Shown here: one piece after another, positions 11,749 through 16,230 of the stretch
How positions within the stretch are numbered: the first letter of the stretch is position 1
How the letters are laid out: every line of letters starts with the position of its first letter
Position numbers and translations under genes: made by a program
The notes under the pieces: generated by a model
The model's input: the letters and a program-made list of their open reading frames with translations, nothing else
Told to the model about the DNA's origin: nothing
Database searches by the model: none
Source: Bacteroidota bacterium
Lineage (GTDB): Bacteria; Bacteroidota; Ignavibacteria; UBA10030; UBA8401
Length of the DNA: 48,343 nt
Assembly: GCA_027622375.1 (NCBI GenBank)
Contig: JAQCAB010000012.1
Span: forward strand, 1-48,343
Direction of reading: 5' to 3'

Positions 11749-13539
11749 ATGTCAATACTTTATTTAGATGGAATAAGATTTAAAAACGGATTGATTTCGG
11801 GATTTAGGCAAGTAATTGCTCAAAAAGATTATTTAAATAAAATAAATGTTTTTCCCGTTCCTGATGGTGACACGGGAACTAATATGGCCTTTACGCTTTT
11901 GGGAATCCAAAATGCAATCTCTCGGCAAACGCACTCAAATATAAATGAGATGAGTCAAATTGTAGCTGAGAGCGCGCTTGATGGTGCTCGTGGAAACTCA
12001 GGCGCAATTTTAGCGCAATTTTTTGTTGGCGTTGCAGATGGATTAAATAATAAAATTCGTGTTAACGCAATAGATTTTACAAATGCAGTTAAAAAAGGAA
12101 AACTTTATGCCTACGATGCGCTAATTACACCGAAGGAAGGAACAATTTTAACAGTAATCAACGATTGGGTTGATGAATTAGAAAAATTAAGTCAACAACT
12201 TGACAACTTTAAAATTATTTTGGAGAAAGCCTTACATAGAGCAAAAATTTCTTTAAAAGAAACAACTTCAAAACTTGAAGTACTCGCAAAAGCGGGAGTT
12301 GTTGATGCAGGCGCTCAAGGATTTGTTGAACTTTTAAATGGAATACAACAATATATTGATTCAGGTTTTATTCCTGAGCATTTGCAAGTTAATGAAGATG
12401 CAAATAATGTTTTCATAAATAAACCAGAAATTTTAGAAGAGTTTCAATTTTGTACCGAATGTTTAATTGATGGTAAAGAAATCAACAGAGTTAGTTTAAA
12501 AGAAGAAATAATGAATTTGGGAAATAGTATAATTCTTGGTGGTACAAAAAATAAAATTAAATTACATATCCACACAAATAATCCAAAAATTATTTTTGAA
12601 ATTTGCGCTAAGTATGGAATTGTTTCAAGCGAAAAAGCTGATGATATGTTGCAACAACAAACTGATGTTTTAAAGGTGCATGAAAATATTGCACTGGTTG
12701 TTGATTCGGGCTGCGATTTGCCGGAAGAAATATTGCATGAATATAATATTCATATGGTTCCTGTTCGGTTAAATTTTGGTGATAAACATTATGTTGATAA
12801 ACTTACGATTACAACAAAAGAATTTTGGGACGAAGTAAAATCAAATCCAATTAATCCAACAACATCCCAACCAACACCGGGTGATTTTAAAAGACAATAT
12901 CAATTTTTATCTGGGCATTATAAAAGTGCAATTTCACTTCACTTGCCAAGTAAATTAAGTGGAACTTATCAATCTGCAATTACAGCTGCAAAAGGAATTC
13001 CGGATTTTCAAATAAAAGTTATTGAAGCTTTCAATGGAAGTGTTGGAATGGGATTAATTGCAATTAGAATTATTGAAGCAATTAAAAAAAATAAAACAAT
13101 TGAAGAGGTTGAAAAAATTGCAAATCAAGCAATTACTAATTGCAACGTTTATGTTTCACTTGATACCTTAGAATTTGTTGTTCGTGGCGGAAGATTACCT
13201 GCATCCAAAAAAAGATTAGCCGATTTGTTAAAGTTGAATCCAATTTTAACTTTTACAGAAAATGGAGTTAAAGCATCAGGTTTTACTTTTGGCTCGCAAG
13301 ATAAATTCAAAAAATTCAAAAAATTTATTTCAAAAAAAATTCCAAAAATTCCTTTCCGTGTTGGGATAGCGCACGCAGTTGCTGAAGAAAACGCAGTCGA
13401 ATTAAAAAATTTTTTCAAATCAATTAAAGAATGTGACGAAGTAATTTTTACAAATATTGGTCCCGCGCTTGGAGCGCATTCTGGACCAAATGCAATTGCT
13501 GTTGCAATCCAAACTTTAAATGATGATTTATCAAATTAA
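11749..13539 (+). CDS. DAK2-DegV fusion: fatty acid kinase (FakA) fused to fatty-acid-binding FakB domain
   Basis: The protein has 596 residues. Residues about 1-205 are a DhaL/DAK2 kinase domain with NVFPVPDGDTGTNM (D39 and D41 bind Mg-ATP) and SALDGARGNSGAILAQ. Residues about 225-305 match the FakA middle domain (ECLIDG, GNSIILGG, IKLHIHTNNP). From about 312 a complete DegV/FakB lipid-binding domain follows (VVDSGCDLPEE, NPTTSQPTPGDF, YVSLDTLEFVVRGGRLP). In Firmicutes FakA and FakB are separate proteins that phosphorylate exogenous or recycled fatty acids to acyl phosphate, the substrate PlsX/PlsY use. Here kinase and fatty-acid carrier are one chain, and plsY lies just downstream, which fits that role. 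Confidence 0.9.
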   Translation: MSILYLDGIRFKNGLISGFRQVIAQKDYLNKINVFPVPDGDTGTNMAFTLLGIQNAISRQTHSNINEMSQIVAESALDGARGNSGAILAQFFVGVADGLNNKIRVNAIDFTNAVKKGKLYAYDALITPKEGTILTVINDWVDELEKLSQQLDNFKIILEKALHRAKISLKETTSKLEVLAKAGVVDAGAQGFVELLNGIQQYIDSGFIPEHLQVNEDANNVFINKPEILEEFQFCTECLIDGKEINRVSLKEEIMNLGNSIILGGTKNKIKLHIHTNNPKIIFEICAKYGIVSSEKADDMLQQQTDVLKVHENIALVVDSGCDLPEEILHEYNIHMVPVRLNFGDKHYVDKLTITTKEFWDEVKSNPINPTTSQPTPGDFKRQYQFLSGHYKSAISLHLPSKLSGTYQSAITAAKGIPDFQIKVIEAFNGSVGMGLIAIRIIEAIKKNKTIEEVEKIANQAITNCNVYVSLDTLEFVVRGGRLPASKKRLADLLKLNPILTFTENGVKASGFTFGSQDKFKKFKKFISKKIPKIPFRVGIAHAVAEENAVELKNFFKSIKECDEVIFTNIGPALGAHSGPNAIAVAIQTLNDDLSN

Positions 13540-13902: not shown

Positions 13903-13978
13903 ATAACAATATATTACTTTTTTAGATGCTCTGACATTCTTTAATTAATTTTTATATATTTACTCGAGTGAATAAAAT

Positions 13979-13986
13979 TATCTTTG
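13979..13986 (+). promoter_or_regulatory. Possible TAnnTTTG promoter element for plsY
   Basis: TATCTTTG matches the Bacteroidota -7 consensus, 25 bases before the plsY ATG. No TTG is found at the expected upstream spacing, so support is partial. Confidence 0.35.
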
Positions 13987-14011
13987 TAAAAATAAATATC
14001 ATATTGTAGTT

Positions 14012-14608
14012 ATGGTTGAATCATCAAATTTAGTTAAGATTGAACATTATTTATATTTTGTTTTATGTTATTTATTTGGGTGTATAATTTTTGGTTTAAT
14101 ATTAACAAAATTTTTTTATCACGGAGATATTCGGCTACAAGGTAGTGGTAATATTGGTGCGCGGAACGTTGGCCGTGTTTATGGTAAATCAGCTTTTGTA
14201 ATTACTTTTATCGGTGATGCATTAAAGGGAATTGCACCAATTGTTGTTGCTCGATTATTAAATTATTCTGAATCCATTCAACTTGCAGGACTTGCATTTG
14301 CAACTTTAGGTCATATAAAACCAGTTACATTAAAATATAAAGGTGGAAAAGGTCTTGCAACTTTTAGTGGCGGGATAATTATTTTTAATCCAATTGTAGT
14401 TCCATTTTTTATTTTATCCTTTGGTGTACTTTATGCATTCATTAAAAACTTTAATATTGCAGGATTGATTTCGTTAATTATTATACCGGCAGTTTTATAT
14501 TATAAACAAAACAATTTGTTGAGTTGTATTATAGTTTTTGGAATTATTATATTGATTTTTTTAGCGCACTTAAAAAATATCAAAGATTGGGTTAAGTTAA
14601 ATGACTAA
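14012..14608 (+). CDS. plsY: Acyl-phosphate:glycerol-3-phosphate acyltransferase
   Basis: The protein has 198 residues. PlsY is a polytopic inner-membrane enzyme that makes 1-acyl-glycerol-3-phosphate from acyl phosphate, the first committed phospholipid step. Diagnostic motifs are GSGNIGARNVGRVYGK (family: GSGN-GATN--R), FIGDALKG and LGHIKPVTLKYKGGKGLAT. About five hydrophobic segments are visible. The N-terminal tail before the first membrane segment is slightly long; starts farther in are possible. It overlaps the following GNAT-aminotransferase gene by 8 bases, so the two are translationally coupled. Confidence 0.95.
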   Translation: MVESSNLVKIEHYLYFVLCYLFGCIIFGLILTKFFYHGDIRLQGSGNIGARNVGRVYGKSAFVITFIGDALKGIAPIVVARLLNYSESIQLAGLAFATLGHIKPVTLKYKGGKGLATFSGGIIIFNPIVVPFFILSFGVLYAFIKNFNIAGLISLIIIPAVLYYKQNNLLSCIIVFGIIILIFLAHLKNIKDWVKLND

Positions 14609-16205
14609 TAACAATCTATATTTTTATAAAATTGCAAATTCCGAAAAAGAATTTGAACAAATCCATAAACTAAACTATAAAACTTTTTCAGAAGAAATTC
14701 CGCAGCATCAAAAAAACTCAGAGCAAAAATTGATTGATCAATTCCATGATCAAAATAAATATATTATATGTTTAAAGGATGAAAAATTAGTTGGAATGGT
14801 TGCGATACGTGGGAATAGACCATTTTCACTCGATAAGAAAATTGGTTCAATTGAAAAATCACTCCCATTTTTTGTAAAAAATCCATGTGAGTTTAGATTA
14901 TTAGCTATTAATAAAGAATTACGTAATGGTCGAGTACTTTTTGGATTGTTTCAATTTATGAATAAATATTGTTTAAAAATGGGTTATGATATTGCTGTTA
15001 TTTCTGGAACTGTTCGACAGTTAAAATTATACAAACAACTTGGTTTTAAACCATTTGCGCAATTAACCGGAACTGATGGCGTAATGTTTCAACCGATGTA
15101 TTTAACAAAACAAACTTTTGAAGAATCAATTGAAGAGAGAATTATTCAAAAAACTTTACAATTTTTACCTGGACCGACAGAAATATCAAAAAATGTAATG
15201 ACGGCATTTTGCAATAAACCAATTTCACATCGTTCAATAGATTTTAAAGAAGAATTCGAAAAAACAAAGTCATTACTTTGTAAACTTGTAAATTGTAAAA
15301 ATGTTCAAATTCTTTTAGGTACCGGATCTTTAGCAAATGATGTTGTTGCAGCACAACTCTCATTAGAAAAAGGAGAAGGATTAATTTTATCAAATGGTGA
15401 GTTTGGTAACAGAATAATTGAACAAGCAAATCGGTTTGGATTAAAATTTGAAATTATTCAAAAAGAATGGCGAGAGTCTTTTTCAAAAAAAGAAATCATT
15501 TCAAAAATAAATAAAAAAATAAAATGGCTTTGGGTTGTTCACAGCGAAACTTCAACCGGGATACTTAATGATATCGAAATGCTGAAGCATATTGCAAAAG
15601 AAAAAAATATAAAACTTTGTTTAGATTGCATAAGTTCAATAGGTGCAATTAAACTTGATTTATCGGATATATTTTTAGCAACAGGTGTAAGTGGAAAGGG
15701 ATTGCATGGGCTCACCGGTCTATCATTTGTATTTCATAATCACAATGTTAAACCATCAACAAAACTTCCAAAGTATATTGATTTGGGATATTACCAACTA
15801 AAAGATAGTATTCCATTTTCACATTCATCAAATCTTGTTGAAGCACTTTTAGTTGCATTGGAAAATTTCTCGGAAGAGAGTATTAAAAAAGTAAAAACAA
15901 CACACAAATTCTTGAAGAACGAATTAATAAAATCAGGATATAAAATAATCAACAAAGAAAATGCTTCACCAACTATTATTACAATAGAACTTCCTCCAAA
16001 AATTTCTTCAATAATTTTATGTGATCTTTTATTTTACAATGGATATCAGTTGCACTATGAAAGCAATTATTTAACAAAGAGAAATTGGATTCAAATCGCC
16101 TGTTTGAATGATTACGATAAAACTGATTTGAAGAGGATGATTCAGTTATTAAAATTAATAACAGCTTATGAGCTGAATAACAACGCCAAAACTAGATTTA
16201 ATTAG
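14601..16205 (+). CDS. GNAT (N-acyltransferase-like) domain fused to class V PLP aminotransferase
   Basis: The protein has 534 residues in two domains. Residues 1-175 look like a GNAT fold of the N-acyl amino acid synthase / autoinducer-synthase type: HKLNYKTFSEEIPQH, VGMVAIRGNRPF, CEFRLLAINKELRNG, and the closing LYKQLGFKPF. Residues about 188-530 are a fold-type I aminotransferase of the alanine-glyoxylate/serine-pyruvate group: PGPTEI (190-195), SHRSIDF, GTGSLANDVVAAQL, D342 in LCLDCISSIGA (pyridine-N contact), and K366 in GVSGKGL as the PLP lysine. It starts 8 bases inside plsY. I know no characterised enzyme with this pairing next to plsY. It may make an amine or amino acid by transamination and acylate it for a membrane lipid or signal; this is inference. 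Confidence 0.85.
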   Translation: MTNNNLYFYKIANSEKEFEQIHKLNYKTFSEEIPQHQKNSEQKLIDQFHDQNKYIICLKDEKLVGMVAIRGNRPFSLDKKIGSIEKSLPFFVKNPCEFRLLAINKELRNGRVLFGLFQFMNKYCLKMGYDIAVISGTVRQLKLYKQLGFKPFAQLTGTDGVMFQPMYLTKQTFEESIEERIIQKTLQFLPGPTEISKNVMTAFCNKPISHRSIDFKEEFEKTKSLLCKLVNCKNVQILLGTGSLANDVVAAQLSLEKGEGLILSNGEFGNRIIEQANRFGLKFEIIQKEWRESFSKKEIISKINKKIKWLWVVHSETSTGILNDIEMLKHIAKEKNIKLCLDCISSIGAIKLDLSDIFLATGVSGKGLHGLTGLSFVFHNHNVKPSTKLPKYIDLGYYQLKDSIPFSHSSNLVEALLVALENFSEESIKKVKTTHKFLKNELIKSGYKIINKENASPTIITIELPPKISSIILCDLLFYNGYQLHYESNYLTKRNWIQIACLNDYDKTDLKRMIQLLKLITAYELNNNAKTRFN

Positions 16206-16230
16206 TTTAGTGGAAAACGCAAATCAATAA

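Follow-up and report, generated by a model that had tools for sequence, protein, structure and literature searches.

Our study revealed, in a stretch of 48 343 nucleotides from a Bacteroidota genome (referred to here as the window), a pair of overlapping genes that recurs in several bacterial phyla: plsY2, a paralogue of the gene for the glycerol-3-phosphate (G3P) acyltransferase PlsY, and a gene whose product joins a GNAT-type acyltransferase domain to a class V PLP-dependent enzyme. We put the probability that the two genes together form a transferable module that makes an N-acylated amino lipid at roughly 50 %, and the lipid that such a module builds is probably one so far undescribed. This reading is supported by the close coupling of the two genes, their co-occurrence and joint transfer, the FeeM fold of the acyltransferase domain, the altered pocket of PlsY2, a glutamine (Gln498) at a substrate position of the PLP domain and the presence of lipid-type neighbours.

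Architecture of the fusion and its acyltransferase domain

An earlier note on this DNA had placed the start of the fusion gene 8 bases inside plsY, and the coordinates bear this out, as the two reading frames share 8 bases (Table 1). Its assignment of a GNAT domain and a class V PLP enzyme to a single chain also held, since Pfam FeeM (PF21926; residues 21–168, 34.2 bits against a cut-off of 27) and Aminotran_5 (PF00266; residues 207–385, 59.1 bits against 21.5) both matched the window fusion above cut-off. The PGPTEI and SHRS motifs that it listed were both found in the fusion, and the PLP lysine that it described as intact, K366, was invariant in all 81 aligned members. Structure prediction, which it had put forward as a check, gave a confident AlphaFold2 fold for the whole fusion (mean pLDDT 93.2, pTM 0.88). 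The recurrence of the same architecture across many phyla, along with uniform PhnW-type and FeeM profile matches, puts the fusion far above chance.

Table 1. Features of the plsY2–fusion gene pair and its surroundings, in window positions
Feature	Position	Strand	Remarks
plsY2	14012..14608	+	198 aa, stop included; paralogue of glycerol-3-phosphate acyltransferase PlsY
GNAT–aminotransferase fusion	14601..16205	+	534 aa
FeeM/LuxI-like N-acyltransferase (GNAT) domain of fusion (predicted)	14601..15140	+	residues 1–180; Pfam FeeM, fold
Class V PLP-dependent enzyme domain of fusion	15150..16176	+	residues ~184–525; K366, Q498
Insertion with only plsY2 and the fusion gene	13903..16230		comparison with congener
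FakA-like kinase fused to DegV (FakB-like) domain, host gene	11749..13539	+	Pfam Dak2, FakA-like_M and DegV

The N-terminal domain is predicted, from profile matches and modelled fold, to be a FeeM-type N-acyltransferase domain. The FeeM model was matched by 38 out of 38 GNAT parts of family members (Pfam, E≤0.001). Because matches to the PLP domain dominate fold searches with the complete model, the GNAT domain was also folded alone (pLDDT 92.7), and its top fold match was FeeM itself (2g0b; Z 18.8, rmsd 2.8, 166 residues aligned). Within one Z unit, FeeM is level with a plain GNAT (5jph, Z 17.9), and the AHL synthases TofI, BjaI and LasI come next in the ranking (Z 17.5–17.7). Both the Pfam match and the fold ranking thus support the FeeM/LuxI-like N-terminal domain claimed in the earlier note, and the outcome that it had set against the claim, a domain unrelated to acyltransferases, did not occur.

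The GNAT fold is common to the fusion and to FeeM/LuxI-type enzymes, which comprise N-acyl amino acid synthases and AHL synthases; the fusion differs from these in that its GNAT domain shares a chain with a PLP enzyme and its gene is coupled to plsY. To our knowledge, the known FeeM/LuxI-type N-acyltransferases are all single-domain enzymes. In PntC-AEPT (6pd1) and Mycoplasma penetrans MetRS (9os7), a class V aminotransferase likewise carries another enzyme at its N terminus, but this partner is nucleotidyltransferase-like rather than GNAT (PMC13215547), and 9os7 (‘methionine-tRNA ligase’) was ruled out as a GNAT–aminotransferase fusion on this ground.

Distribution, linkage and horizontal transfer

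A pattern scan based on an alignment of three members, run over 84 980 species genomes, returned 328 related stretches, and the fusion frame was present in 79 of the best 80, which were kept (the exception being L164). Overall, the fusion is encoded at no fewer than 80 loci. These 80 span Bacillota, Verrucomicrobiota, Planctomycetota, Acidobacteriota, Deltaproteobacteria/Desulfobacterota, Sumerlaeota and Dadabacteria. A genome scan with the single window protein as query found nothing, and no fusion relatives were found in the viral contigs scanned. Nearer to the window, none of its 60 nearest relatives gave a full-length fusion match; they match the PLP part only, in unrelated transaminases. 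Across the phylum, good matches to the GNAT part were found in few of 395 genomes: one carries the fusion (G150), one has the two halves as adjacent genes (G073) and in one the gene is cut by a contig end (G187).

Linkage was assessed at 82 loci: the window, G073, a locus on a C. spongiae plasmid and the 79 from the scan. At 63 of them the gene immediately upstream of the fusion, in the same orientation, is a plsY homologue, and in 58 of the 63 the two genes overlap or are separated by no more than 30 bp. A second sample, the best 30 of 65 Bacillaceae matches, had plsY near the fusion at 26 loci. The other neighbours differ between genera, and the commonest family after plsY occurs at only 17 of the 82 loci, where it follows local synteny. 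The survey of plsY-adjacent copies proposed in the earlier note therefore found the linkage conserved and the fusion recurring in several phyla, and neither form of lost conservation that it had named against its claim was seen.

Several neighbours may be recorded individually. Acyl-ACP synthetase or PlsC-type proteins are encoded near the fusion at L134 (by similarity), L141 and L162 (both by Pfam). Directly downstream of the fusion in five Bacillota loci (L064:19608–21461, L131, L147, L168 and L169) is an LTA-synthase-like gene (Pfam Sulfatase). Both kinds of neighbour fit lipid work. At one locus each, the fusion lies next to an IF-2B family gene (L161:9651–10706), which we take to be MtnA-like, and to a class II aldolase (L138:7127–7780); MtnA-like and class II aldolase types act in routes releasing dihydroxyacetone phosphate (DHAP).

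Co-occurrence was quantified in 151 genomes of the Neobacillus family (Bacillaceae). The GNAT part of the fusion was found in 65 of these, in frames of >500 aa in all but two. PlsY2, called present at ≥162 bits with the addition of G480 (149.5 bits), whose copy adjoins the fusion, was detected in 64 of the 65 fusion genomes and in 26 of the 86 without the fusion (Fisher P=6e-20, with relatedness ignored). The sole fusion genome without PlsY2 (G486) has a short frame. Chance adjacency of the two genes was rejected by the neighbourhood and co-occurrence counts.

These distributions also bear on a second explanation, in which the product of the fusion is a soluble or secreted N-acyl amine, such as a signal, surfactant or antibiotic of the kind made by FeeM and LuxI enzymes, and the coupling to PlsY2 does no more than keep acyl supply or membrane synthesis in balance. 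Among the top fold matches are FeeM and AHL synthases, and each gene can be found alone, PlsY2 in the 26 fusion-free Bacillaceae genomes and the fusion in several phyla. However, genes for regulators, receptors or export are not recurrent neighbours of the pair at the 82 loci, a special PlsY paralogue held by 64 of 65 genomes is not obviously needed by a metabolite gene, and the PLP domain is unneeded for homoserine-lactone chemistry. We consider this explanation possible, if unlikely. The signal that the earlier note listed among the potential products is unsupported by gene context, as no partner but plsY recurs widely.

The pair in the window was acquired horizontally from a Neobacillus-like donor, into a site that is still empty in a congener. 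The window fusion groups inside a Neobacillus/Pseudoneobacillus clade (16 rows, support 97), and a matching clade (13 rows, support 99) contains the window plsY2. In the congener (G001) a cupin gene and a GDPD gene lie one base apart, and in the window the same two genes flank the pair. The GC3 values of the two genes (0.15 and 0.18) resemble that of their neighbours (0.18), and the transfer is therefore not very recent. Assembly contamination was considered and is unlikely, given the similar GC3 and flanks that are syntenic with the congener.

The recipient genome (1.73 Mb in 48 contigs, completeness rating 100 %) and that of its congener are small, at 1.7 Mb compared with 2.9–4.5 Mb in other members of the family, and this small-genome lineage still gained the module. 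The FakA–DegV fusion gene located 0.47 kb upstream of the pair is also found in the congener, which has no module, and a FakA-type gene was unseen at the other fusion loci, save for one DegV-type match (L127). Fak makes acyl-phosphate for phospholipid synthesis (PMC9136124), and it is plausible that this host protein is an acyl-phosphate source outside the inserted module.

Substrate positions of PlsY2 and of the PLP domain

The window PlsY2 belongs to the same family as canonical PlsY, with a Pfam G3P_acyltransf (PF02660) match of 131.4 bits (E 4.5e-38; cut-off 24.1), and falls under the cut-off of both NCBIfam PlsY equivalogs (117.8 bits against 199 and 112.6 against 137.2). A canonical plsY is encoded elsewhere in the window genome (G000:C42), as are PlsX and PlsC-type genes. 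In the tree, 13 canonical PlsY sequences are split from all linked and family copies by a branch with support 99. The fusion-linked PlsY is a separate paralogue with two substrate-pocket positions changed, while the phosphate clamp and the His92 and His177 positions are mostly kept.

Positions were numbered as in Aquifex aeolicus PlsY, by alignment to the solved structure 5xj5. T41 of that enzyme binds the acyl-phosphate carbonyl and S142 touches the 2-OH of G3P, and among PlsY homologues T41 is conserved in 86.4 % (R in 3.0 %) and S142 in 52.6 % (A in 33.0 %, G in 5.2 %) (Li et al. 2017, PMC5700162). The window PlsY2 has Arg at the first position and Gly at the second. The same changes dominate the 63 linked PlsY2 sequences, which have Arg at the T41 position in 55 (T in 6, K in 1, one gap) and Gly at the S142 position in 61, whereas T41 and S142 are both retained in 26 of 38 other PlsY copies, the remaining 12 being PlsY2-like, divergent or partial. 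As S142 is variable among PlsY homologues in the conservation figures just cited, S142G alone argues only weakly for a new substrate. The residues of the G3P phosphate clamp (S35, R45, K104 and N180) and H177 are all present in the window PlsY2, and all five are found in 49 of the 63 linked copies.

The dependence between the two genes is one-sided. The whole clamp is retained in only 5 of the 16 PlsY2 copies retrieved from the 26 fusion-free Bacillaceae genomes, some of whose plsY2 loci share synteny with Neobacillus loci that carry the fusion; no fusion remnants were found near plsY2 by tblastn at 20 Bacillaceae loci. This fits a fusion that needs PlsY2 and a PlsY2 that loosens once the fusion is lost, although shared ancestry could look alike. 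That 26 genomes keep PlsY2 without the fusion indicates that PlsY2 has, or had, another use. For the 19 loci lacking an adjacent plsY, 17 genomes were searched together, G073 was searched separately and L156 was left out. Five of the 17 have an unlinked copy with R41 and G142, one has a copy with R41 and M142, and 11, several of which are MAGs, have neither, from which it follows that PlsY2 is not always needed.

The adjacency could also be historical, with PlsY2 serving as a spare G3P acyltransferase and the fusion acting elsewhere. In keeping with this, PlsY2 persists in the syntenic position in Neobacillus-like genomes that lack the fusion, and S142 is variable among PlsY homologues (PMC5700162). 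However, the tight coupling is seen in several phyla with flanking genes that differ between genera, the two genes entered the window genome jointly and co-occur in 64 of 65 genomes, and the full clamp is far less frequent in fusion-free than in linked PlsY2 (5/16 vs 49/63). A purely historical adjacency is therefore improbable.

A different PlsY-like paralogue was observed in G002–G005 (L076, L077, L079 and L080), with Glu at the R45 position and Arg at the K104 position, and its neighbours are presumably sulfur-amino-acid and other genes. It is probably not an ordinary G3P acyltransferase.

The PLP domain resembles PhnW, AGAT and related class V transaminases in fold (Z about 40–42), and it has the PLP lysine and the ETSTG and SGKG-type motifs in common with PhnW and AGAT/BhcA. 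It differs from them, besides the fused GNAT domain, at one substrate position. Gln498 is invariant in all 81 aligned fusion members, whereas the aligned residue is Arg in 31 out of 31 control class V enzymes and in five aligned PDB relatives (PhnW, AGAT and others). We take this Arg to be the anchor for the substrate carboxylate or phosphonate in class V aminotransferases, and the invariant Gln in its place argues for an unusual substrate. Nevertheless, an ordinary amino donor could still be accommodated through another of the domain's invariant arginines (R211, R271 or R278).

Two further explanations concern the reaction of this domain. Were it a 2-aminoethylphosphonate (AEP) transaminase, the GNAT domain would acylate AEP, and the product would be an N-acylated phosphonate or the head group of a phosphonolipid. 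PhnW-type models were the best NCBIfam matches for 45 out of 45 members of one fusion alignment, and PhnW structures are among the best folds. However, the window fusion scored 129.4 bits against the PhnW/AEP transaminase equivalog (TIGR03301), below its cut-off of 360.8, and the substrate-position Arg of PhnW is the one replaced throughout the family. Furthermore, PEP mutase was above cut-off in just 2 of 14 fusion-bearing genomes and a profile search of the window genome gave no match to it, so phosphonate metabolism is unlikely. The phosphonate reading was set aside on the scarcity of PEP mutase and the TIGR03301 score, and we regard it as highly improbable. Alternatively, the domain may be a lyase, decarboxylase or desulfurase that supplies the amine to the GNAT domain, still within a lipid pathway. 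The loss of the Arg would be in line with another substrate and another reaction, and fusion members give weaker matches to the SerC, IscS and EgtE models, but the best sequence and fold relatives are all transaminases, which makes this quite unlikely.

A proposed route to an N-acylated amino lipid

In the two-gene module that we favour, the PLP domain would transaminate a carbonyl compound that lacks the usual carboxylate or phosphonate anchor, and the FeeM-like domain would then N-acylate the resulting amine with a fatty acyl group taken from ACP or CoA, in the same polypeptide and before release. PlsY2 would O-acylate the same molecule or its precursor with acyl-phosphate, to give an ester-linked chain. 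A substrate with the phosphate and primary hydroxyl of G3P but a different C2 would explain why PlsY2 has an intact clamp and an altered C2 contact; candidate substrates include serinol phosphate, N-acylserinol phosphate and DHAP. Much more tentatively, by analogy and from the residues described above, the substrate might be DHAP or 1-acyl-DHAP, aminated at C2, in which case the product would be 1-O-acyl-2-N-acyl-2-amino-2-deoxyglycerol-3-phosphate, an amide analogue of phosphatidic acid. There is a precedent for the transamination of DHAP to serinol phosphate in RtxA, a DHAP aminotransferase that, by its described reaction, would share the first step if DHAP is the substrate; RtxA is joined to a dihydrorhizobitoxine synthase domain, unlike the window fusion (PMC3222319).

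The closest described counterparts are the aminolipid systems OlsB/OlsA, GlsB/GlsA and OlsF, in which a GNAT-type N-acyltransferase likewise has an adjacent second acyltransferase. These systems use a PlsC-like O-acyltransferase (PF01553, or in OlsF PF19576) and take a free amino acid as the amine (PMC11631085). The window pair has a PlsY paralogue as the partner and a PLP domain built in, and the gene adjoining the fusion is of PlsY type rather than PlsC-like (PF01553). The earlier note knew of no described pathway with this architecture, and we likewise found no paper on a GNAT–class V aminotransferase–plsY architecture in the open-access literature.

The pair is common, with the fusion in 65 of the 151 sampled Neobacillus-family genomes, is present in several phyla and moves between them. 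If its product is a membrane lipid, current maps lack part of the lipids of soil Bacillaceae, Verrucomicrobiota and Planctomycetota, and if that product is an amide phospholipid, the module would add a third bacterial route to two-chain amide backbones, alongside those of sphingolipids and amino-acid lipids. Should DHAP or 1-acyl-DHAP prove to be the substrate, several phyla would possess a parallel, ceramide-like phospholipid backbone made without serine palmitoyltransferase, and the usual head-group enzymes of phospholipid synthesis could draw on the amide analogue of phosphatidic acid. The pair also gives functional access to a PlsY subfamily whose pocket is altered.

Our study also detected a second GNAT fusion, at L042:1453–3039 and L044:322–2028 (genomes G344 and G364), which combines a FeeM/OlsB-like GNAT with a class I/II aminotransferase. 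No plsY was found in the neighbourhoods of these two genes, and their GNAT part is ~30 % identical to that of the window fusion. This fusion is apparently independent, which suggests that this kind of acyltransferase has been joined to an amine-making enzyme twice.
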